From IMG/VR virus record IMGVR_UViG_3300042985_000001, positions 1 through 32,733 of that record: 32,733 nt of DNA; one strand, 5' to 3'. The notes under the pieces were generated by a model. It made no database searches. It saw nothing but the letters and a program-made list of their open reading frames with translations, and had not been told where the DNA came from. Shown here in pieces: positions 1 to 28,032 of this stretch (position 1 is the first letter of the stretch; each line of letters opens with the position of its first letter). This stretch comes from a virus. The position numbers and the translations under genes are program-made.

Positions 1-386
1 CCATTAACTATATCCTGTTTTATTCTTATATGATAATATATTTTGTCTATGGTGGTTTGTATAAAAGTATCCAAAGTATTTGCGTTATCTTTGGTTATAC
101 GATGCTGTGTATTTTCTAGGGCATTTAATGCACCTTTCATCTTCTCCGTATTAGCTTTACTTATACTTCCTGAAGTCTCTAACATATTATTTATGATATT
201 AATAATATCATCAATAAGTTGTTTCTGATTTCTTGATGTTTTTTTGAGATTGTTTTGCTCAACGGCCCTCTCTATAGCGTTTTTATATTTATGCAGCAGT
301 TGTCTTTTTGGACTAAGGTCTTTTATTAACTTCCGTTGTTTTTCTTTAGATTCTATTACTTTACTCTTTGTTTTGTTTAGGTTTAC
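1..386 (-). CDS. Left-edge part of giant internal virion protein (partial, continues beyond window)
   Basis: The minus-strand frame is open from about 386 to the first base of the window, so the gene continues outside. About 128 codons encode a highly charged, Lys/Asn/Gln-rich helical stretch with coiled-coil character, for example KSKVIESKEKQRKLIKDL followed later by a Leu/Ile heptad-like run. There is no ATG near the right end of this segment. It therefore most likely continues the protein upstream (383-919) through a one-base frame change at the AAGAAGTAAAC junction near 386. A separate downstream gene is possible, because the upstream frame does end in TAA at 383-385. Function is unknown; position and character fit the C-terminal region of a phage ejection-type protein. 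Confidence 0.5.
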
Positions 387-919
387 TTCTTAGCTTCGGG
401 TTCAACTTTAGCCTCAGTTTTAACATAGTCCTTCCCGAAGAGTTTGTTTTTATAAGAATTCCATTGACTTTCGGACATCAAACTAGGACTTTTCTTGCTT
501 AGTTGTTCTTTCAACATCCTAAACTCTAACGGCAAGGCAGTTACTTCAGAGAGTTTCTCTTCTGATACTTCGTAAGCTTTACTATGAATTCCGCTCTCAC
601 GATAAACATATATAAGTTTTCCTTTACTGTTTTTGCTATGAAAATTCCTTTCATCCCTGAACCAGCTTATGGAAGGAGCGATAAGATGAGCGTTATTCGT
701 GGTGCCCAATAAGTCAAGAACCCTAAAATTTTTAATTAGGTTTTCAATTCCATCTGGCTTTATTGTTACTGATTTTTGGCCCCTGATACCCACATCAGTC
801 ATCCAGTCGTCTCTTTTCTGTTTAAAATCTTTCAGCTCTTGTACAACTTCGGTAATATATGCCGTATTTATATCAGTTCCTATATGACCAACAAAGGCTG
901 CAACCTGCTTAGAGTCCCA
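383..919 (-). CDS. Segment of giant internal virion protein
   Basis: Open minus-strand segment. The internal ATG at 802 gives a 139-residue ORF, but the same frame is open upstream to about 919 with natural-looking sequence (DSKQVAAFVGHIGTDINTAY), so 802 is not a real start. It continues the 880-1500 segment after a frame change near 920, where that frame turns into an unlikely tail (GGTLSRLQPLLVI) before its stop. The C-terminus is Lys/Glu/Ala-rich (KTEAKVEPEAKK). No catalytic motif is recognised. Confidence 0.55.
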   Translation of the reverse strand, partial: WDSKQVAAFVGHIGTDINTAYITEVVQELKDFKQKRDDWMTDVGIRGQKSVTIKPDGIENLIKNFRVLDLLGTTNNAHLIAPSISWFRDERNFHSKNSKGKLIYVYRESGIHSKAYEVSEEKLSEVTALPLEFRMLKEQLSKKSPSLMSESQWNSYKNKLFGKDYVKTEAKVEPEAKK

Positions 920-1500
920 CCTGCTGCTAATAATTCATATATAAACACATGGCGATATCCATGTTGGACAAAATTCTCTGACAGTTCGAGGTATTTTTCT
1001 AATTCATCCCTTTCTTCATTGGTAAGATTTTTTCTTCTTAAAAGCAGAAGAATAGATTTCTGATAACTAGCCTTTAGGTTTTTCTTCATAGCATCGGGCT
1101 TATATGACCTATCCCCACTCCTAAGTACTTCATTAATAAGCCTTGCTTTGCCATCCTTTGAAACCGTAAAGTCTATAAAGAGTACATTAGGGGCTGCATC
1201 TGGTTTCCCCTGTAATTGGTTTTTCCTTGCAGGTTGTTTTTTACCAGCACCCTCAAGCAACTTTACATCATTTAGTAAATCATTATCTATTGATAAAAGC
1301 TGACTCAGGGCATCATAATACATTTTCAGTGCCGCTTTAAGTTCTTTAATATGTGATATTGTTGCCTCTCTACCTTGTTGTCTTACACTCTTTGATGCTG
1401 CAATATCAATCTCAGCCTTAGTACCAGCAATATTAGACACAAGACTCGCCCAGGTAGGATTGTTTTCAGTTGCTCTTACACCTGAGCCCGTGTATATCAT
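880..1500 (-). CDS. Segment of giant internal virion protein
   Basis: A 206-codon open segment with mostly helical, charged sequence. The apparent start ATG at 1500 is internal: the frame is open upstream through NQGPLASMIYTGSGVRATEN, and the upstream segment (1506-1724) ends in a short unnatural tail at the same place. A frame change near 1510-1530 therefore joins them. It contains a helical stretch with Leu repeats around residues 45-75 (ALKMYYDALSQLLSIDNDLL). No enzyme motif is visible. I assign it to the giant ejection-type protein by continuity only. Confidence 0.55.
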   Translation of the reverse strand: MIYTGSGVRATENNPTWASLVSNIAGTKAEIDIAASKSVRQQGREATISHIKELKAALKMYYDALSQLLSIDNDLLNDVKLLEGAGKKQPARKNQLQGKPDAAPNVLFIDFTVSKDGKARLINEVLRSGDRSYKPDAMKKNLKASYQKSILLLLRRKNLTNEERDELEKYLELSENFVQHGYRHVFIYELLAAGGTLSRLQPLLVI

Positions 1501-1505
1501 CGAAG

Positions 1506-1724
1506 CTAAAGGTCCCTGATTGCTAGAAAATGAGCACGGGCATTATTAATGGATTTGTTTTTTTCCCATGTTTTTCGAGTGGTCATGGTTTCAATAGCCA
1601 ATATCTTACTTTGGTTTGATACACCAGTAGGATGAAGTCTTTTTCCAGCCACTTTAACCGTAGTCACAACCTGCACAATCGCCTTAACGGCGGCTTTAGC
1701 AGGGTTGTATCTTTGTCTTCCCAC
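1506..1724 (-). CDS. Short segment of giant internal virion protein
   Basis: A 72-codon open segment between two larger segments of the same coding stretch. It is basic and Ala/Lys/Val-rich (NPAKAAVKAIVQVVTTVKVAGKR). No ribosome binding site stands out before the ATG at 1724. The sequence between 1724 and 1827 has no obvious promoter or terminator, so I read this as a piece of the long protein isolated by frame changes on both sides. It could instead be the start of a separate downstream gene, which I consider less likely. Confidence 0.4.
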   Translation of the reverse strand: MGRQRYNPAKAAVKAIVQVVTTVKVAGKRLHPTGVSNQSKILAIETMTTRKTWEKNKSINNARAHFLAIRDL

Positions 1725-1826
1725 CCAAGATGGACGTGAAAAAATTCAGCAATTTTAAAGAAGTGATTTTTTATAGTATCATTAGCTGGCAGCTTTACTC
1801 ACCATCAACCGTTCTTGTTCGATTAG

Positions 1827-3857
1827 CTATATACCAGTCCCTATGATATTGCAGAAATTTCTTCCATTCTTTTTTGGTACTTGACCCCAAGGCTTAACAT
1901 CTCCGTCCTCAGTAATCAATATATCTTTCATATTACTATCAGCCTCTAAGGATTGATGTAATAAATCCATAGCCATGGTGAATGCATGAACCTTGTCCAA
2001 CCTCGGACCATCCTTACCTTCCTCCTTAAGAGATTCCATTCTCTCCTGCATTTGTATAAAAACGTAATCACTAAACAAATTATAATTTTCTCTTGTCATC
2101 CTCGTTCCAGCAGTAGTAGTCATAACCTTCGCTGGTGAAACCACCACGTTTGTTTCTAATTCTTCATTGGATATTCTAATAAAATCCTTGATTATATTAT
2201 TAATCTGGATCTTGTTTACAGACCTTCCTGGCTGTTGCCCTTCTTTGTAAGGCGAAATTCCCCGTGATATAAATATACTGTCCTGTTCACTTATGATGTT
2301 TTCCCAATCGGAGTAGTTATCAATAAACGAATTATCTGCCAAAAAATATAAAGCTGACCCTAGTTCTAAAAACCCAGGGTGTTCAAGTCCAAGCACCTCA
2401 CCGACCCTGATCCTGATTTTCATTATCCTAAGAGCATAGTCAGCAGCATTTCGAGCAGCTTCTTCTGCAGTAATAGCAGGTTTTTTATCATAAATAGGTA
2501 CATGTAAACCACCATCTGTTATATTATATAGTAGTAAGTCCTGATCTATAAGAGCCTGCACCACCTTTTTAAACTCTATCGGCTTGTTCATAAAATGTCT
2601 GTAAAGTGCAGTCGCATATTTTTCTTGATGTCCATCTATAATATCCCCTTTTATTTCACTAAGAGATGGGTCAACCGTCTTCATCATATTTGCAATGCTG
2701 GCACGTCTTTTGTTTTTACCACCTAGTAAACTTGCCAAGAATATTTTATCGTATATTTGGGTATTACTCCACCCCTTAGACATTATATCTTCATCGTTAC
2801 GGATTAATTCTACGTCATGGGCCATTTTATTTAGATCTTCAATCGTAAAGTCATTCTCCGCTGTTAAATATTTATGGACATCGAAAGTAAATTTTTTCTC
2901 TTTCCTCGTTATTTGTTTCTGGATAAGGTGATCCACTTCTACATCCACTCCTTCTTCTAATGTAGTCCTCGCATCTGGAAATTCTTTATCATAGTAAGAT
3001 ATTATATCCTTTCTTACATCAGCAGGTTCCCGTGCCTCCCCCTTCTTATTTTCTAGTTGTATTGAATGTTGTTTAGCAAGCAACATTTCCATTTCCCACC
3101 CTATATAATCAAGGAATGATGCCTCTGTATGTCCTTCAACCTTTGATGCTTCAGTTTGTATTATATCAGCCGCTAACTGTTGTTCGTTTTGTATACCACG
3201 CCTCTCAATCTTAGCAAGTGTCCAAATCATATACGACCGTACTGTTGCCTCAAACTCTTCTTCAGGTAAACCCTCAGCTATCTTTGCTATATAATCAACC
3301 CAGTTTCCTGTATTGATACCCTTACCTTCTAATGCCGCTGCTAATTCAGGAGTAGTATTAGATGCGTAAGAATCAAATGTTTTCTTCATCATCTTGGTTT
3401 CCAGCGCATATTTTTGTCTATCATCTTTTTCCTTCTGCTTTATTTGATAATGCTCTATAGACTTCCGTGCACGGGGATAGTTACCAACACCACTGGCACC
3501 AGCAAAGAGGAATGCTGCTACGGCAGCAGGCCCAAGAACACTGACAACTTCTGCTAATATTTCAGCTTCTGGCCTGATACCAGTCAGCTTTTCTGTAGTG
3601 GCTATACCAGCTTGCTGGGCAGCCTCAGTTCCCATCTCAACGCCTGCAACCCTTCCCATATTCAATATAAGATCTGTCAGCCATCCAGTAGTTGTTTTGG
3701 CTCCTATTTCGGCTGTAGACACCATGAATAGTTTTGCCAGATACTTGGTTCCGAAGTATTCACCAGTACCCTCAATAAGCCCCGTTATAAAAGGTGCCCA
3801 TGATAGTGTTTTCCTGAGAGCATTTGCCCCTTTAAAATCCCCCTGGTCTTCCAACAT
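1827..3857 (-). CDS. Central segment of giant internal (ejection-type) virion protein
   Basis: The longest open segment in the window (676 codons). The ATG at 3857 is internal: the segment overlaps 3785-4033, and the reading frame changes near 3850 just after a match to the upstream sequence. An N-terminal Ala/Gly-rich, partly hydrophobic portion (about residues 80-125, including VVSVLGPAAVAAFLFAGASG) could interact with membrane. It is followed by a long, mostly alpha-helical acidic region. The sequence resembles the very large internal proteins that tailed phages package and eject, but no transglycosylase, ADP-ribosyltransferase, protease or methylase signature is visible. It ends with an unnatural tail (FCNIIGTGI), so the C-terminus shown is probably a frame-break artefact. 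Confidence 0.65.
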   Translation of the reverse strand: MLEDQGDFKGANALRKTLSWAPFITGLIEGTGEYFGTKYLAKLFMVSTAEIGAKTTTGWLTDLILNMGRVAGVEMGTEAAQQAGIATTEKLTGIRPEAEILAEVVSVLGPAAVAAFLFAGASGVGNYPRARKSIEHYQIKQKEKDDRQKYALETKMMKKTFDSYASNTTPELAAALEGKGINTGNWVDYIAKIAEGLPEEEFEATVRSYMIWTLAKIERRGIQNEQQLAADIIQTEASKVEGHTEASFLDYIGWEMEMLLAKQHSIQLENKKGEAREPADVRKDIISYYDKEFPDARTTLEEGVDVEVDHLIQKQITRKEKKFTFDVHKYLTAENDFTIEDLNKMAHDVELIRNDEDIMSKGWSNTQIYDKIFLASLLGGKNKRRASIANMMKTVDPSLSEIKGDIIDGHQEKYATALYRHFMNKPIEFKKVVQALIDQDLLLYNITDGGLHVPIYDKKPAITAEEAARNAADYALRIMKIRIRVGEVLGLEHPGFLELGSALYFLADNSFIDNYSDWENIISEQDSIFISRGISPYKEGQQPGRSVNKIQINNIIKDFIRISNEELETNVVVSPAKVMTTTAGTRMTRENYNLFSDYVFIQMQERMESLKEEGKDGPRLDKVHAFTMAMDLLHQSLEADSNMKDILITEDGDVKPWGQVPKKNGRNFCNIIGTGI

Positions 3858-4033
3858 ACGTATTCTGTCCCAGGTAATTTCTTTAGTATGTTGTGCTGCT
3901 GAAAGCCAAAGAACCCTCCTACTGATGCTGAAGTAACACGGTTTACCATGTGTTGTGCTGTCTTTAAATCTCTTCTGGCCATTCGCACCTTTGTTGCATT
4001 ATCTACCTGCACTGAATGGTAAGCATCTTGCAT
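3785..4033 (-). CDS. Short segment of giant internal virion protein
   Basis: An 82-codon open segment overlapping its neighbours at both ends. The useful part is about residues 1-50 (MQDAYHSVQVDNATKVRMAR, then a Gly/Ala-rich TSASVGGFFGF). After that the segment becomes an unnatural His/Lys tail, while the neighbouring frame (1827-3857) takes over. The upstream neighbour ends KKKLCKMLTIQCR just where this frame begins KAMQDAYHSVQ, which suggests a frame change near 4035. It is not an independent gene. Confidence 0.45.
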   Translation of the reverse strand: MQDAYHSVQVDNATKVRMARRDLKTAQHMVNRVTSASVGGFFGFQQHNILKKLPGTEYVCWKTRGILKGQMLSGKHYHGHLL

Positions 4034-4371
4034 AGCTTTTTTTTGTTTCTTGGCAATTTTATATTCTTTGAAAGTTTAGTGCCAAGCCTTTGTGTTTGAT
4101 ATGATGCCTTTAGATTATGCACAGTTTTAAGTGTTTTCTGAACATGCTTTAATCTAAGCCCTATCGAAAGTAATATTCTTGCACCAGTAAGGCTGATACC
4201 ACCAGGAACAGCTGATGTAGGTATTATTTTACCCGCTTCATAGAACCACCTGGTAAATTCATCATACTCAGGTTTTGACCCCCATAGATTCTTAGACTGT
4301 TTATTTGCCCATTCTGTCAGCGCATTGCCTGCTGGCCCTGCTCCTAAAAACTTCCATGCCTCGCCCGTCAT
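4003..4371 (-). CDS. Segment of giant internal virion protein
   Basis: A 122-codon open segment between the N-terminal segment (4454-5170) and the next one. It contains a Gly/Ala-rich start (GAGPAGNALTEWANKQ), then a helical stretch with Ile/Leu (PGGISLTGARILLSIGLRL) that might be membrane-active. It ends in a very basic Lys-rich run (KLSKNIKLPRNKKKL). The 80 nucleotides between 4372 and 4453 code in frame with neither ORF cleanly, consistent with further indels. Its assignment to the giant protein rests on continuity of strand, spacing and composition. Confidence 0.5.
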   Translation of the reverse strand: MTGEAWKFLGAGPAGNALTEWANKQSKNLWGSKPEYDEFTRWFYEAGKIIPTSAVPGGISLTGARILLSIGLRLKHVQKTLKTVHNLKASYQTQRLGTKLSKNIKLPRNKKKLCKMLTIQCR

Positions 4372-4453
4372 ACGGGGCAGTTCAGTTGTTATACCTCTCC
4401 AAGGCCCCTGAGAAGTGCAGCTACTTTATTAGTAGATATTTCACCTTTTTCTT

Positions 4454-5170
4454 CTATTTTAAACTCTGTATATGACTGGATAGGGGTAAGTTTAGATGCT
4501 CCTCTTCCACCTTTAAGGGACTCAACCCCCTCATTATACGATCTCTTGCAAACTTGTTAGCTTTATCTATAATATCTTTTGTTGGCTCTTTTCCGCTAAG
4601 TAGCCAGCTTAACTCATCTCCAGTTGTTTTTTCGGTAATTAGTGGCATACTCATCTGGATACCATTTATTCTTATATCAGAAAGCCATGAATAATCACGT
4701 ACAAGATTGCCATCCCACCCCTTTTGATCGCCTAACCATCCCTGCTTCCGTGTTTTAATCCAATTACCATCTGTCGGATCGTACTCAGTACGTACATCTT
4801 TATCAGAAATCACGTATTCGCCCACGTCCCTTACAAGTGGTTTGTTTCTATCAAATAGAGGCGAGTACTGTTTATATATACCCTTCTTATCACGGGCCGC
4901 ATCGCTTAATACATTCCCATAACGAATACTACCTTCAGGGGCCAATATTTTTCCTGTTCTTTGGTTTACGTCTCCCCGAATTAATTCCCCTGTTTTACTG
5001 TCCCTGTAATATTCAGGGGGGTCTGGGACCCTGGCAGGGGCCGATAACATTGGTTTATTGAAAATGTCCGCAGTTATCCCTAACTTATATAAACTCTTCT
5101 CATACGGACTAAGCTTGTCAAGCTCATCTCTGTCTATTGCACGTTGTATTATCTGTTGATAAGTTCTCAT
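4454..5170 (-). CDS. N-terminus of giant internal (large polyvalent-type) virion protein
   Basis: This 238-codon segment carries the true start of the giant protein. ATG at 5170 (MRTYQQIIQRAIDRDELDKL) follows the AAGGATATTACAAA leader, 13 nt after the stop of the upstream gene at 5184. Residues about 145-225 match a motif that recurs in large internal or polyvalent phage proteins: a short strand region SDIRINGIQMSMPLIT, then ELSWLLSGKEPTKDIIDKA, then KFARDRIMRGLSP. In that family the last block usually ends KR..G.SPF. Here the frame breaks directly after SPL (near 4500), and the protein continues in other frames. Role inferred: a capsid-packaged protein ejected with DNA. Confidence 0.65.
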   Translation of the reverse strand: MRTYQQIIQRAIDRDELDKLSPYEKSLYKLGITADIFNKPMLSAPARVPDPPEYYRDSKTGELIRGDVNQRTGKILAPEGSIRYGNVLSDAARDKKGIYKQYSPLFDRNKPLVRDVGEYVISDKDVRTEYDPTDGNWIKTRKQGWLGDQKGWDGNLVRDYSWLSDIRINGIQMSMPLITEKTTGDELSWLLSGKEPTKDIIDKANKFARDRIMRGLSPLKVEEEHLNLPLSSHIQSLK

Positions 5171-5183
5171 TTTGTAATATCCT

Positions 5184-5472
5184 TAAAAGAATCCTCCTAC
5201 TGGGTGGGGGACTTTTTCCTCTTTTTTCCGAGCTTTTATTTCTTCATCCGTGTATTGTTCATATTCAGCCTTACCGCCTCCATATCCATCTAATATATTT
5301 GAATGATTTGTGGCACCAAAGTATCTTCTTTATCAAAGGGTGTCACTTGTTGTCCCCCTCTCAACGCTTTTCCTGTCCGCTGCCCAGGAGTTCTTATAAC
5401 TGTCTTACTTTTACCACCACTAGTGGGTTTCTGACTCATTATGTCTTGTATTATGGCGTTTTGGTTCATCAA
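5184..5472 (-). CDS. C-terminal part of internal virion-like protein (frame-broken)
   Basis: This completes the protein of 5420-6658. After REKI the main frame turns into a His/Arg/Asn tail, while the other frame continues MNQNAIIQDIMSQKPTSGG and a basic Gly/Thr-rich stretch to KEDTLV. A second frame change near 5310 gives GATNHSNILDGYGGGKAEYE and then a charged end (TDEEIKARKKEEKVPHPV) closing with GGFF and TAA at 5184-5186. The tail sits immediately before the giant protein's start at 5170, as expected for an operon. Function is unknown. Confidence 0.5.
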
Positions 5473-6658
5473 TCTTTTCTCTCAAGTCATTAATCACCTC
5501 ACCTTGAGGTGTTTTTCCTGTTAATGCCAGCTCCTCTTCTCTTAATCTTTTTTGATAGTTAATAACCATCATCTTACACCATTCTCTTCTAGCTGGTGCA
5601 GCCATCCCGCTCACTCCTCTTCCTCCTATTACTGCCTGTACCTGATGTTCTTTTTCGGTAGTATATGCGAATGCTATTTCAATCACACCATCATCTATAT
5701 AGAGGGGTAAACCATTTTTATCCACATAGCTTTTATCCGTAAGTCTCCGATACATATCCCATGACGCAAAGTCTAGACCACCCTTTTGTTTAAAAAGAGC
5801 AACTATAGATTCTGTTTCTTGTATTCCTGCCTGGGTCCATTTTTCCTTGGCAGAACCAGGTGTATTATTAAAAACTTTCTGTATCCTACGAAGATATCCA
5901 TTCTGTTCGGGAGTATCTCCAGTTCCTCCGACTTGTAGAAGGTTCCACCTATTAGACAGATTCTGAAGTCTGTCTATATATACATCAGTATTCTCACGTA
6001 CATCTCTATGGAGTATAGCTTCATTCACAAAATCTAAACTTTCTTGCAAGCTTGATTTTGTATCAACACCTGCCTCAAGTACATCCTTTAACCTCTCCAG
6101 GGTTCTTTCCTCTTTTGGTATATCCTTAAGCCACTTGTCTTTGAGAGGGTCTATAAAACCCTCTTTAAGATTTTGTCCTGCTATCTTACTTGATTCGTGT
6201 AAATTGCTCAAGACCCTTATAAAACTGGGCATATTAACAGCTCCTATCTCTAGACTCCCTAAAACATCCCTTATGGAGTGCCCAGTAGCATTGGTATCAA
6301 ATTGCTGAATTTGTTTAATCATACCCTGTAGTCGTTCCATGTCTGTTTTATATACCTTTCCCCCTGGTGATACGACTTCTACTGCACCAGTCTCGGAATT
6401 CATTTCAAGCCCGAAGGCTTTGACTGTCTCTTTGCTAAATATTGGTATATTTTCTTGTTCCGCTTGATCTACCCGCTTTGCAAAAGCATTCTGCAGTTGG
6501 ACAGTCTGCATGGTAATATCTTCCTTCTTTAGACTTTTTTTAGCGATAGTCAACATTTTTTCTTGATTCAGCAATGACTCCGCTGCGTGTGTTCTTGAAA
6601 TTTCTTCGTCTACTATGTTATGCCTTGCGGTCTCCTTGTTTCCTTTTGCTGTTTCCAA
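5420..6658 (-). CDS. Main segment of internal virion-like protein
   Basis: A 412-codon open segment, almost entirely predicted helical with heptad-like Leu/Ile spacing and many Glu, Lys and Gln residues. Examples are ESLLNQEKMLTIAKKSLKKE near the start and LQESLDFVNEAILHRDV in the middle. The ATG at 6658 is internal: upstream coding in 6618-7052 leads directly into it, with a frame change near 6655 in a run of short A/T homopolymers. The reconstructed protein (5184-7195) would be about 670 residues. Length, helical nature and position between a GNAT-like protein and the giant protein are typical of a podovirus internal core or ejection protein. No enzyme motif is visible. Confidence 0.6.
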   Translation of the reverse strand: METAKGNKETARHNIVDEEISRTHAAESLLNQEKMLTIAKKSLKKEDITMQTVQLQNAFAKRVDQAEQENIPIFSKETVKAFGLEMNSETGAVEVVSPGGKVYKTDMERLQGMIKQIQQFDTNATGHSIRDVLGSLEIGAVNMPSFIRVLSNLHESSKIAGQNLKEGFIDPLKDKWLKDIPKEERTLERLKDVLEAGVDTKSSLQESLDFVNEAILHRDVRENTDVYIDRLQNLSNRWNLLQVGGTGDTPEQNGYLRRIQKVFNNTPGSAKEKWTQAGIQETESIVALFKQKGGLDFASWDMYRRLTDKSYVDKNGLPLYIDDGVIEIAFAYTTEKEHQVQAVIGGRGVSGMAAPARREWCKMMVINYQKRLREEELALTGKTPQGEVINDLREKIDEPKRHNTRHNESETH

Positions 6659-7052
6659 ATAGTTCTATCCTGGTCAAGTTGATCTTGAATTTCTTGGTTC
6701 CATAGCCGACTAGATTCCTTATCTTTGTAAAGTCCTCTCCGCTAGACCCACCACTAAGCACGTCAGATGCGAATTGTGCAAACCGTCCTAATTTAGTATC
6801 AGGACCCGTTGGTATGGTTTCAAAATCCACACTACCAGGATTTTTACTACCGTAAGTAGCTATGGCGGTAGCAGCCTCTGGTGAAGCGTCAGGATCACCA
6901 CTGAGGCCCTTACTTATACTATCCATATATGCTTTTCTAGCATCCACATCAAGAGCATCTTTATTTGCTTCATCATACTCATTCATTATCCCTGCCAGCT
7001 GTATGCTCCTTTGTTTTTCTATCCTCAGCTTTTCATCTTCGTAAACTTTTTA
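6618..7052 (-). CDS. N-proximal segment of internal virion-like protein
   Basis: The open frame from about 7052 (VYEDEKLRIEKQRSIQLAGI, then MNEYDEANKDALDVDARKAY) runs to about 6655 before switching into the 5420-6658 frame. The ATG at 6986 is internal because the upstream frame is open and natural. The region is helical at first, then turns Gly/Ser/Pro-rich (GLSGDPDASPEAATAIATYG, GGSSGEDFTKIRNLVGYG). Together with 7053-7195 it forms the N-terminal 180 or so residues of the roughly 670-residue protein. Confidence 0.5.
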
Positions 7053-7195
7053 CGCTTTTATTGGTGGTAACTCCTTCAAAGAAGTCGCCTATTATATTAA
7101 ATGTTGAGGAACTACCCCCCTGGTGCACCTCCACCTCCACCTCCACGTCCACGTCTTTGTGGTGCTGGCGCATTAAAATCAATAAATTTTGCCAT
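7053..7195 (-). CDS. Start of internal virion-like protein (Gly/Arg-rich N-terminus)
   Basis: ATG at 7195 is preceded by AGGGGGAAAGTAACA, a clear ribosome binding site overlapping the stop of the GNAT-like gene at 7198. The first residues read MAKFIDFNAPAPQRRGRG followed by GGGGAPGG, then hit TAG near 7115 inside a six-G/C run. The next frame continues SSTFNIIGDFFEGVTTNKSV and, after a further frame change near 7050, VYEDEKL. The start MAKFIDFNAPAPQRRG has the look of a capsid-internal protein. The homopolymer run explains the break. Confidence is high for the start site and moderate for the joining. Confidence 0.5.
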
Positions 7196-7197
7196 TG

Positions 7198-7584
7198 TTA
7201 CTTTCCCCCTCTAACCTTCATTAATTCAACGAATAAATCACCGTCAAACCTAGTTCCTATTATTAAAAATCCAGCATTAAGAGCCACCTTAATAGCCTTA
7301 ATGTTTGTATTCTCTATTCTGCATATAATACCTTTATATTCATCAAGTACCTTATCTATAATCCTGTTAAACAATATTGGTGCATAATAACCTCTGAACT
7401 TTTCATCAAATGCCGCATACTGAAGATATATACACTCTTTGTTATGCTTATACGCAATCATAAACCCTATATATTCATCATCTAAATCACATGTATATAT
7501 AAAGTCGGGTTCATCTGTTTCTTTAAGATGCAGGTTACCACAGAACTCTTCATATGGTGTCTTAATTACATTAAGCTCTTTCAT
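7198..7584 (-). CDS. GNAT-like acetyltransferase-fold protein of the virion module
   Basis: An intact 128-residue ORF whose start ATG shares its A with the stop of the preceding gene (TAATG at 7584), which suggests translational coupling. The layout fits a compact GNAT domain: beta strands with FIYTCDLDDEYIGFMIAYKH, then CIYLQYAAFDEKFRGYYAPI (the place of the acetyl-CoA-binding beta4/alpha3), a helix FNRIIDKVLDEYKGI, then NTNIKAIKVALNAGFLIIGT, the typical end of GNAT proteins. The canonical Q/RxxGxG/A loop is only loosely kept (EKFRGYYAP), so catalysis is uncertain. GNAT-like small proteins next to internal core genes are known in T7-like phages, where they act in virion assembly. Confidence 0.6.
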   Translation of the reverse strand: MKELNVIKTPYEEFCGNLHLKETDEPDFIYTCDLDDEYIGFMIAYKHNKECIYLQYAAFDEKFRGYYAPILFNRIIDKVLDEYKGIICRIENTNIKAIKVALNAGFLIIGTRFDGDLFVELMKVRGGK

Positions 7585-15603: not shown

Positions 15604-16363
15604 AACTTCATAGTCCCCGACATTGGCGACTTATTAGCCATCGCCTTCTTAACAAATTTCTCGTCTTTTTTTCTACGCTTCATATATGCCTGAACATGTT
15701 CGGCATTTAGCGCAGCCGCTATATCGGGTTCGCCAGCGGTTCTACTGGACATGGCGGTAGAACCACCAACTGCACCACCTGCTTTCTGTCCTGGAAAGCA
15801 GTTGTTGGATTTTGTGTTTGTCTATACATACCTTTATAATAATTCCTTTCCGCTATTTCATAGTTTCTCTGTGCATCAAGTTTTCCATTCTCCGAATAAC
15901 CAGGAAGTCCTTCCATTGATTTTAAAATAGCTTCATATGTTTGAGGGTCTTCTTCCATCCCCATATCACGAACGGCTCTTGAATAATCACCTATATACTT
16001 ATCTCTTTTCTCGATCTTTCTTCTTCCATTTTTTGAACCTTGGCTTCTACCATTTTTTCCATACGCTTACTATCATAACACTATCATCATCATACTACCA
16101 CCAAGATCAAATAAATCATCTTCTTTTTCAGCAGAGGGAGGAGATTGATATTTTATTTCAGATATCTTATCCAGTAGGTATTATATCTGTCCTCATTATC
16201 TTCCTTATACGCTTTAAATTCTCTCCCAAGCCTACTGTTACCATCACGGAGGTTTTTGTTTTCCTCTTCCAGTCTAGCTGCATCTGTAACCTCTTCACTA
16301 GATTCCGTTACTGGTTCGTTGACTTCTTCCCTCTGTATTGTCAAGTCCATTAAGTTCGTCCAT
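15600..16363 (-). CDS. Scaffolding-like protein (frame-broken)
   Basis: Reconstructed from three frames. ATG at 16363 (MDELNGLDNT) follows AAAGGAGAGAAAA. The frame then continues VNEPVTESSEEVTDAARLEE and ENKNLRDGNSRLGREFKAYK (16153-16350). After breaks near 16165 and 15985-16080 comes EKRDKYIGDYSRAVRDMGME, then YEAILKSMEGLPGYSENGKL (15719-15964). A last break near 15770 leads to AGGAVGGSTAMSSRTAGEPD and a basic helical end KRRKKDEKFVKKAM. It is about 250 residues, acidic helical first and basic last, located between portal and capsid: a typical scaffold with a basic capsid-binding C-terminus. Confidence 0.6.
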
Positions 16364-22054: not shown

Positions 22055-22236
22055 AGTACTGTGGGGCCCTTTATCTCTGCTGCCGCTTTTTGTATCTTAT
22101 GCCCTATACCGACAAAACCAAATCCTGCCGCTACTGTTACCACTATCTTAGCTAAATCTACATAACCAAGACTTGTTAATATTGCACTTACTCCTGCCAA
22201 TCCTGCTGCTATCCACGTCTTATAACCTTTCATCAT
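22051..22236 (-). CDS. Holin-like small membrane protein
   Basis: An intact 61-residue ORF with an AGGAGGCAGGAA site immediately before ATGATG at 22236. MMKGYKTWIAAGLAGVSAIL begins a hydrophobic segment (about residues 8-24), and a second (DLAKIVVTVAAGFGFVGIGH) follows after a short polar turn. The C-terminus is charged (KIQKAAAEIKGPTVL). The layout of two short membrane helices and a charged tail is typical of small phage holins and holin-like proteins, and its place before other membrane proteins agrees. I cannot tell its class or whether it is the lethal holin. Confidence 0.6.
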   Translation of the reverse strand: MMKGYKTWIAAGLAGVSAILTSLGYVDLAKIVVTVAAGFGFVGIGHKIQKAAAEIKGPTVL

Positions 22237-22259
22237 TTCCTGCCTCCTATTAAATTAAT

Positions 22260-22651
22260 TTATTCTAACCCAACCCCATCTTCCAAATCCCAACTTTGAT
22301 TTTCTTCGTTCCATTTATATCGTTTGTCATCATCAGGGTAAGATACAGATGATTCCCATTGACAACTATCTTCATTTAAAAGCCATGACGGATAAGGTTG
22401 CGATGTATAAAAAGCATCTTTATCACTATCGTAGTATATCCAATTTCCTGCAAAGTTCTTTCTTAAAGCAGTACCACCGTCAGGTTCATCACTATCAGGA
22501 GTATAATGAATACCACCTCTTGTATTATAACTTGTCTGTATCCAATTAGAAGAATCACCAACAGCACTAGAATCTATAAAATCTGTTCTGCAACTATTAC
22601 CCTTTTGACTATATTATTCTCATCTATTTCTGCAAAATGTGCATACTTAAT
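22260..22651 (-). CDS. Small phage tail-fibre-associated protein (frame-broken)
   Basis: No long ORF is visible, but the reading KYAHFAEIDENNIVKRVIVA, then (after a one-base deletion near 22575) EQDFIDSSAVGDSSNWIQTS and YNTRGGIHYTPDSDEPDGG, then LRKNFAGNWIYYDSDKDAFY, QPYPSWLLNEDSCQWES and YKWNEENQSWDLED is clear to TAA at 22260. This is a pattern I recognise from a family of small proteins in environmental phages (HFA.ID..N.V..V..., then T.YNT, R..YAG..Y.YD...DAF...PYPSW.LN). It lies directly downstream of the Gly-rich tip protein. The start seems to be ATT at 22651, or an ATG lost to an error. Confidence 0.6.
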
Positions 22652-24746: not shown

Positions 24747-26275
24747 CTAAAGTATTACCCACCTTGAACCATTAGAAACGGTAACCGTATAGGTATTTGC
24801 AACAGTAACGGGTCCTATAGTACTTCCGTTCTCTGTACCTGCAAAGGTTATATTTTCCGATATTGTCTTGCCATTTGTTCTAATCATAGAACTTGATCCC
24901 AAACTAGCACGGGCCTCAAGAGTAACATCTTCGTCAGGCATGGTAATTGTTCTTATCGTACTTGTTGATATACCAGAAGCCTCAAACGCTATCTTCTTAG
25001 TTGTATCAGTCTGATCTGTAATCCTGAATACATTATCAGCAGGAGTGTCACTACCTGCACCTGCTGGCCCTGTTGCTCCAGTTGCCCCTTTAGCACCAGT
25101 ACGTATAAATGATATATAAAGTGTGTCGGTATTTGATATTGTGCCGTTGGATGCAACATGGGTTACTGGTACTTGCAACCATCCTGTATTATCTACTACA
25201 GCTCCTGTAACACTATAACAGGCAAAAGTAGCAGGTGTACCAGATTTTCGTATCGTTATATAACCCTCATGTGTATCATTACTGCCATCATCTATACTTG
25301 CGATTAAATCAGATATATCAGGATTTCCAGTATCTGCTGAAGTTGCATCCATAGCCAGATTAGTAACTGAAGCTATAGTGGCATTATCAAATCTTATATC
25401 CCCTGCGCCTGGGTCGTTCATTGAAGTACTACTATCAAAGGTATACTTCCAAGCCAAAGCTCCTACTGCTGAAGTTGTATTTGTTTCAGATGTACTTGCA
25501 TTACTTGCAGATGTACTTGCAGCGCTTGCTAGACTGCATTACTTGCAGCACTTGCCGATGTACTTGCAGCACTTGCAGAAGTACTTGCAGCACTTGCAGA
25601 TGTACTTGCAGCACTTGCAGATGTAGATGCCGCAGAAGCAGATGTAGATGCATTTGTTTCCGCTGTTTCCGCATTAGTCTCTGCTGTTTCAGCTGCTGTC
25701 TTAGCTGTCTCTGCATTAGTTTCTGCTGTCTCTGCATTAGTTTCTGCTGTCTCAGCATTAGTCTCAGCCGTCTCTGCCGCAGTCTCAGAAGCTGCTGCTG
25801 CCGTTGCCGAAGTTGCTGCCGCAGTTGCCGAAGTTGCTGCCGCAGTTGCAGATGTAGCTGCAGCTGCTGCATCAACAATCAAATCCCACTTGGCACTATC
25901 AGTATTGGTATTAATGGGCTGGGAACCGCTTGATGTATGTGATGTATTACAATAATATATATTATTATTAGATGTGTCTTTAACGAGCTCTCTCGTTACG
26001 TAAGCAGTAGAAGCAGCCCAATTACCTTTATAATCCCCTATTAAAGCATTTCCCTTCAGTATCCATCTTTTATTACCTGCATTGGTATCAGGAGATATAA
26101 CACCAGGGGAACTTTCACTTGCACCAGAACTATCATCCAGTGTGTAAAAATATGCCTTATTGCCTGTTACCACCATAGCCGCATCTAAATCTGACAGGTC
26201 CATTCCATCTATCTTATCAAGTGCACCAGTACCACCACCTGTCAAAGCAACTGCTGGATAAAATTTATTAGCCAT
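24747..26275 (-). CDS. Tail fibre with heptad repeats (frame-broken)
   Basis: Start ATG 26275 (MANKFYPAVALTGGGTGALD) after GGAGATATAG. An N-terminal globular part (about residues 1-135) includes TGGGTGALDKIDGMDLSDLD and YYCNTSHTSSGSQPINTNTD. It is followed by long 7-residue repeats: AAATSAT, then AETAETN and then STSASAA, typical of a trimeric fibre shaft. The segment ends NAV at a frame change near 25529, and the other frame continues TSAVGALAWKYTFDSSTSM to a collagen-like GATGATGPAGAGS and the C-terminus SNGSRWVIL. About 510 residues. The product is most likely a tail fibre shaft protein. Confidence 0.65.
25530..25860 (-). repeat. Heptad-coding direct repeats in the fibre shaft gene
   Basis: Within the fibre gene, 21-nt units (such as the plus-strand GATGTACTTGCAGCACTTGCA) recur with small changes between about 25540 and 25630, and related 21-nt units coding AETAETN and AAATSAT follow to about 25860. 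Each encodes a heptad. Near-identical units could vary in number by slippage. Confidence 0.7.
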
Positions 26276-27177: not shown

Positions 27178-27942
27178 TCATATTGTGCCACTGACTCTCT
27201 TTGATTTGGATTCATAACTCTTCCCATTAAAATAAAATCTATTATTTATAATGTCTATAGGGTACAAATTAAACTCACCATTACTTGCCACATACAGCAC
27301 TGCAAACTGGTGATCCCAGCTTCCAGCTTTACCTCTCAAGTAAGATGGTTTCTTATTGCACAAGCAACCGAGCCCCCAAGCTTTGAGAGTTTTTTGCATA
27401 ACCATGTTAATACCATAAACCTGACTCCTGTGTGTGTGTCCATATACAATATTACAACCTAATTTAGATAAATGTAATTTGGCATGATGCTCTCCAATCC
27501 ACATCCCGTGAGCCATATATAACTGACCTATCCTGTATAAATCATTATGTTTAACCCACTCTATGCCACGTTTCTTCAAGTCCAGAAGAACGGGGTATTC
27601 AACCAGCCCCTCTACCTCTGGGTGGTTATCAATATACTGTTCAACCCAATTCTCATGGTTTCCTTCAAACCATATTACTTCTTTACTGTATTTCTGGATG
27701 AAGTCAAGTTCACGCTTTAATGCATTTATTTCATTAAAGTGTCTCTTTCCCTCCATCTTACGCTTACTGTCCATCTCCCAATGGCTGAGACTTGCACATT
27801 CTGCGAAGTCACCCAGTAAGTATGTCTTGTCTGGCTTAAATTCTTTTAGGAACTTTTTAACCGAATCATATACGCTATCGTATCCTTTGTCGCCTATATG
27901 AACATCTGGTAATATAACTGCTTTAAAACCTTTTTTTGCCAT
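27178..27942 (-). CDS. Calcineurin-like metallophosphoesterase
   Basis: An intact 254-residue ORF starting MAKKGFKAVILPDVHIGDKG. All metallophosphoesterase motifs are present: DVH at residues 13-15, GD at 44-45 (LLGDFAE), GNHEN at 94-98, MAHG near 145, and YGHTH near 168. The fold and residues predict a di-metal phosphodiesterase or phosphatase. Sequence ends SKRVSGTI. It lies in the virion block with AGGGTAAG before the start. Substrate is unknown; phage relatives are often labelled DNA-repair exonuclease-like without proof. Confidence 0.85.
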   Translation of the reverse strand: MAKKGFKAVILPDVHIGDKGYDSVYDSVKKFLKEFKPDKTYLLGDFAECASLSHWEMDSKRKMEGKRHFNEINALKRELDFIQKYSKEVIWFEGNHENWVEQYIDNHPEVEGLVEYPVLLDLKKRGIEWVKHNDLYRIGQLYMAHGMWIGEHHAKLHLSKLGCNIVYGHTHRSQVYGINMVMQKTLKAWGLGCLCNKKPSYLRGKAGSWDHQFAVLYVASNGEFNLYPIDIINNRFYFNGKSYESKSKRVSGTI

Positions 27943-27961
27943 AATCTTACCCTCCGTAGTA

Positions 27962-28008
27962 ATCTCCGAAAGAAAGGGAGGAAACTGTCGGAGGCAGCGT
28001 TCGGAGAT
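27962..28008. other. Inverted repeat in the gap upstream of the phosphoesterase gene
   Basis: ATCTCCGAA (27962-27970) and TTCGGAGAT (28000-28008) form a perfect 9-bp palindromic pair around a 29-nt loop that itself contains further CTCCG/CGGAG-like sequence. It is the only gap of this size (90 nt) between two genes in this part and could be an RNA hairpin, a terminator without U-run, or a protein-binding site. No promoter is obvious. Confidence 0.45.
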
Positions 28009-28032
28009 ATCATCCTATCCCCCCTTATCAAT

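Follow-up and report, generated by a model that had tools for sequence, protein, structure and literature searches.

The stretch of DNA analysed here (the window; 32,733 bases) comprises the complete IMG/VR virus record IMGVR_UViG_3300042985_000001, an incomplete virus genome whose minus strand encodes the main genes. Its left end is occupied by a giant gene (positions 1..5170, on the minus strand, as are all genes and domains located below), whose 5' end is complete with an ATG at 5170 and whose 3' end lies outside the window. The source is a marine SU10-like podovirus of microbes, and the giant gene is the end of its virion operon. The encoded protein is composed of an N-terminal motif domain, a helical module, a middle region, and a domain which is very probably homologous, as judged from its sequence, to the tyrosine recombinases.

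As deposited, the giant gene is not a single frame from 5170 to 1 and falls into about ten open pieces. A contig from a separate assembly, DKQR01000155.1 (L031; 3,850 bases), is 98.7% identical to window positions 5203-1362 and stays open in one reading frame over 1,276 codons, across eight of the window's breaks, at each of which the window lacks one base (near 4514, 4393, 4056, 3905, 1873, 1797, 1687 and 1510). The break at ~905 was spanned through homology to L020, a syntenic phage contig with an intact frame of 2,957 codons for the giant protein, in which the N-terminal 1,539 residues align with residues 1-1569 of the stitched window protein (32% identity, E 0). Since comparison with relatives of 84-95% identity reveals private single-base indels in other parts of the record as well, sequence error is the likely cause of the breaks, and the start at ATG 5170 is supported because L031 and L020 have the same N-terminus. 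The pieces from 5170 to ~383 (~1,607 codons) are confirmed as one giant gene, probably cut by reading errors only; a division into two separate genes was rejected, as both contigs read through. The break at ~385 and the last 389 bases (1-389) received no confirmation, the similarity of L020 there not rising above that of shuffles. Given the length of the L020 gene, about 55% of the giant gene, counted from its start, lies within the window; in full the gene probably comprises ~3,000 codons. A preliminary description, made from the letters of the window, had joined the segments into a single reading of more than 1,700 codons. The joining is upheld for 5170-383 by both contigs, with no true stop between segments in L031 across the eight breaks; the size is plausible overall and stands for the ~1,607 codons, L020 leaving the rest unconfirmed.

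The N-terminal motif domain (4500..4825; SDIRINGIQMSMPLIT..ELSWLLSG..KANKFARDRIMRGLSP) comprises ~100 residues and is similar to gp34 of Methylophilales phage MEP301, a free-standing protein of ~99 amino acids (E 1e-5). The domain is found at the equivalent place in the giant proteins of L020 and of a further related contig, L053, and gp49 of Acinetobacter phage Acibel007, which can be aligned to it with an E of 7 that is not significant alone, is perhaps related. It is followed by the helical module of ~330 residues (3435..4424; residues ~250-580; GITTELPRMTG ... EGTGEYFGTKYLAKLF ... SVLGPAAVAAF), which was recognised by its sequence pattern, AlphaFold and Foldseek. The module is predicted by AlphaFold to be all helix, with a predicted local distance difference test score (pLDDT) of 73, and among its viral Foldseek matches is a protein annotated with a 'large polyvalent protein associated domain' (probability 1.00, E 0.017); a fold search against the PDB gave no match.

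Relatives of the helical module were found by degenerate patterns drawn from the alignment of the window with the archaeal virus MetMV, and exact-peptide scans of IMG/VR with window peptides returned none. The module recurs in MetMV and in roughly twelve giant proteins, whose other domains are combined as InPase with LPD1 and RadC; InPase with RelA/SpoT and an Eco57I methylase; InPase with ART, LPD23 and LPD38; ART alone; or InPase with AAA_34. These giants count as polyvalent proteins as Iyer et al. 2017 (PMC5512222) use the term. Because it is present also in L032, a contig filed under Candidatus (Ca.) Methanoperedens, and in L001, which is the Methanosarcina virus MetMV itself, the module spans viruses of both bacteria and archaea. 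Two further module-bearing giants were observed in passing. The first, a 3,517-residue open reading frame (ORF) of L052 (9344-19894), carries the module and an HExxH motif with zero Pfam matches, and its middle may hold further unrecognised domains; the second, in L025 (9326-17542), resembles the anti-CBASS protein Acb1 at a level below threshold (E 0.0006).

The helical module is separated by a middle region of ~500 residues (1932..3434), in which no domain was recognised and which besides L031 was found only in L020, from the tyrosine-recombinase domain (800..1931), where a core-binding and a catalytic part lie in frame within the giant protein. In the pieces of this domain, TGSGVRATE, IDIAASKS, QHGYRHVF and VGHIGTDINTAY could be read by eye, and the catalytic positions were assigned by adding the window/L031 and L020 sequences to a recombinase profile alignment. 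Arg I (TGSGVRATE; 1474..1476) aligns with XerD R148, the catalytic Lys (IDIAASKS; 1390..1392) with K172, the His and Arg II of HxxR (QHGYRH; 961..963 and 952..954) with H244 and R247, His III (VGHIGTD; 884..886) with H270, and the nucleophile Tyr (INTAYITEV; 857..859), nine residues after His III, with Y279. The catalytic set R..K..HxxR..H-x8-Y is complete and in order in window/L031; the corresponding residues of L020 are K, K, H, R, W and Y, the Trp in place of His III being like that of Cre. For the C-terminal 90 residues of the domain, PHROG 7685 (integrase) was the top match among 38,880 families (E 0.0011), and it was matched again by the frame-corrected domain (E 0.0029). A home-made profile, for which XerD, lambda Int and Cre were combined with ten more recombinases, gave the domain joined from L031 and the window 17.8 bits (p 8.5e-8); among 1,000 shuffles the highest score was 7.8. 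In hhalign, the domain was colinear with the XerD family over its length (E 7e-5). Between the Lys and HxxR, the window domain contains a long insert.

These results bear on the remainder of the preliminary description. Its N-terminal SWLLSGKEP...RIMRGLSP motif belongs to the real ~100-residue domain that recurs in L020, L053 and MEP301 gp34, and its view of a giant protein of the polyvalent or internal-virion kind, which runs off the left edge and is broken by sequencing error, has held up. Contrary to its statement, an enzyme domain can be discerned, namely the recombinase domain at ~1931-800 with all six catalytic positions, which single-segment Pfam and PHROG searches overlooked because it was split by the frame breaks into five or six pieces. 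That the remainder matches nothing recognised fails for residues ~250-580, which form the helical module of many polyvalent proteins, and for the recombinase.

Comparison with close relatives places the giant gene in an exchanged segment. The tail proteins of the window, L020 and L053 are mostly 79-98% identical, and the last gene they share, which encodes a GNAT-like acetyltransferase (7198..7584; Pfam Acetyltransf_1, 2.4e-5), is ~90-96% identical in its coding frame. Just past this gene homology breaks off sharply (window ~7184, L020 4743, L053 ~4760). In the gene after the boundary, which in the window lies in pieces (5290..7184; one gene or more), no similarity was found in a three-way comparison with its positional counterparts in L020 and L053. 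The giant protein is 32% identical to that of L020, as stated, and matches that of L053 in the N-terminal ~560 residues only. The alignments show the remainder of the giant gene and the gene before it as a cassette exchanged between close relatives, and the pattern is, on this evidence, that of an exchangeable payload.

The best explanation, which we consider probable, is that the gene encodes a swappable, virion-borne and co-injected protein of the polyvalent type, probably of ~3,000 residues, with a tyrosine recombinase as its payload here. It is supported by the continuous frames of L031 and L020, by the polyvalent-type giants that share the helical module, by the position at the end of the capsid-tail operon, by the recombinase comparisons and by the cassette swap. 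A further supporting point is the C-terminal part of the L020 protein, past the end of the window, which resembles gp123 of Cellulophaga phage phi18:3, annotated as detected in virions by tandem mass spectrometry. Several points weigh against this interpretation. PF00589 of Pfam matched neither the window nor L020, and the recombinase domain is known from two sequences only. In L020, the domain alone scores like a shuffle with the recombinase profile and has Lys in place of Arg I, so that the family may be partly inactive, and its AlphaFold model, built from a two-sequence alignment, has a pLDDT of 38. The resemblance to phi18:3 gp123 is weak, with an E of 0.03 across the whole collection. Apart from these points, the C-terminal part of the L020 protein also resembles a giant protein encoded by an uncultured podovirus (E 1e-10), further scans for recombinase-bearing orthologues returned L020 alone, and none of the other module-bearing giants scores with the recombinase profile.

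The explanation that survives best beside the preferred one, and to which we grant a substantial minority share of belief, keeps the polyvalent virion-borne protein but takes its recombinase domain to be dead as an enzyme and to serve in DNA binding, for example as a tether to the packaged genome or to incoming ends. The Lys and the noise-level score of L020 speak for it, while the tail genes of this contig are mostly ~80-90% identical to those of the window; yet the six positions are all kept in the window/L031 copy, which would be unlikely to persist if the enzyme were dead. Whether the recombinase is catalytically active in the window phage appears about evenly balanced. A plain ejection or scaffold protein of the T7 gp16 type, with no DNA enzyme and a recombinase match arising by chance, is improbable. 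The silence of Pfam on the domain and the occurrence of a loose six-residue pattern in 26 of 5,000 shuffles fit such a protein, but the profile score exceeds all of 1,000 shuffles, an integrase family is the top PHROG match, and the alignment is colinear over the whole domain. That the recombinase is a separate, ordinary integrase gene of a temperate phage, its fusion simulated by frame errors, is very hard to credit: a TTG or ATG codon does stand near the domain start (ATG at ~1931), but two independent contigs contradict it, as the L031 frame, free of stops, takes in the helical module as well as Arg I and the Lys of the domain, and L020 is open through the entire domain and 1,500 residues more.

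Under the preferred interpretation, of a co-injected protein with a recombinase payload, we infer packaging, injection, release by a peptidase, catalytic activity and a DNA target for the giant protein as follows. It would be packed in the head and enter the cell with or before the DNA. The N-terminal motif and the ~330-residue helical module would form the common packaging and delivery part, because they are kept while the rest is swapped. A zincin-type peptidase, suggested only by the HExxH motif (LHEIAHAF) at residue 1823 in the second half of the L020 protein, which lies past the window's end and gave no profile match, may cleave the chain after packaging or entry. The payload would be the tyrosine-recombinase domain, whose homology is supported by the comparisons above and whose activity is presumed. 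Its first-choice task would be early action on the incoming phage DNA, whose redundant ends would be recombined to a circle, or whose genome would be resolved or integrated; as a second choice, host DNA would be cut or bound. No separate PF00589 integrase is present in the 32.7-kb window; as the record is incomplete, this lends weak support to the domain as the phage's own circularising or integrating enzyme. It is a tentative proposal, and on balance a doubtful one, that a virion-delivered site-specific tyrosine recombinase in the swapped payload slot acts on DNA in the first minutes of an infection, before phage gene expression, in which case the genome may be circularised, resolved or integrated, or host DNA may be recombined.

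The surroundings of the giant gene are those of a virion operon. It is the last gene of the capsid-tail operon, downstream of the capsid, adaptor and tail genes on one strand, and is encoded among virion genes as polyvalent proteins are. The Phage_capsid_4 capsid protein, the SU10-type adaptor and the sub-threshold match to an SU10-type portal encoded in the window are indicative of an SU10-like podovirus, and the capsid relatives at 84-100% identity are further IMG/VR contigs. L031 is filed under a Ca. Marinimicrobia metagenome-assembled genome, which is a lead to the host and not a host call, because mis-binning may bring a small phage contig into a bin. Scans of the window for tRNA and Rfam families gave no matches. 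Elsewhere in the window, an ORF at 27178-28014 (minus strand) has, by-eye reading only, metallophosphoesterase-like motifs (PDVHIGDKGYD, GDFAE, GNHE, GHTH), and another at 25529-26275 (minus strand) contains a long alanine/threonine/glutamate repeat (ETAETNAETAETNA...) and is likely a fibre or coiled-coil stalk. About 70 bases at 22186-22260 are 98-100% identical in L014 and L016, the flanking DNA being ~70% identical or unalignable; this segment was rejected as a recombination site, since it instead resembles a ribosome-binding site with the start of a small gene (MMKGYKTWIAAGLAG...). At 16007-16330, many insertions and deletions distinguish relatives that elsewhere share 84-95% identity.

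As a rule, integrases and resolvases are synthesised only once the cell has been infected. If the proposed delivery is true, a recombinase brought in by the virion could act ahead of phage transcription and would constitute a new payload class for polyvalent proteins. The helical module would mark the payload slot, so that reading the module-bearing genes is a direct route to other co-injected enzymes, and since phages of bacteria and viruses of archaea have it in common while their payloads are unrelated, the proposed delivery role can be tested.

In comparison with known systems, the window domain shares with XerD, lambda Int, Cre, PF00589 and PHROG 7685 the order R, K, HxxR, H, Y, with His III nine residues before the Tyr, and differs from known tyrosine recombinases in scoring below the PF00589 cut-off, in its position amid a ~3,000-residue protein and in the long insert between Lys and HxxR. 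The 3,002-amino-acid protein of MetMV (AZF89913.1) is alike in size and operon position and has the helical module at the same place (43% identity over 111 residues), whereas its payload is LPD38 with HExxH, without a recombinase signal. Gp123 of phi18:3 is also a large, last gene product of a virion operon, with a segment weakly similar to the C-terminal region of L020; it differs in its 1,935 residues and the lack of a recombinase signal, and the shared part lies past the window's end. T7 gp16 and the N4 virion RNA polymerase are giant, largely helical proteins that are carried in the virion and injected, and they are comparable in manner of working only. Neither a transglycosylase nor a single-subunit RNA polymerase domain of the T7 gp16/N4 type was found by Pfam or PHROG in the window pieces or L020. 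The N4 enzyme is described by Iyer et al. 2017 (PMC5512222), who treated the phage polyvalent proteins and proposed that they enter the cell injected with the DNA, in a text from which the words 'recombinase' and 'integrase' are both absent. A tyrosine recombinase as payload is a domain absent from the founding survey of polyvalent proteins, and its fusion to a polyvalent or internal virion protein was not encountered in the literature searched, the coverage of which is incomplete. No named LPD or PolyVal Pfam domain, which not every polyvalent protein carries, was detected in the window pieces or L020, so that membership in this class rests on the shared helical module. With polyvalent proteins the window protein has in common a giant multi-domain chain encoded in the virion operon with swappable payload domains, its disparate parts (motif domain, helical module, recombinase and, in L020, the HExxH segment) being joined in a single large polypeptide by the L031 and L020 frames. 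It shares its helical module with giants bearing InPase, ART-PolyVal, LPD1, LPD23 and LPD38, and is set apart from them by its payload, a tyrosine recombinase.

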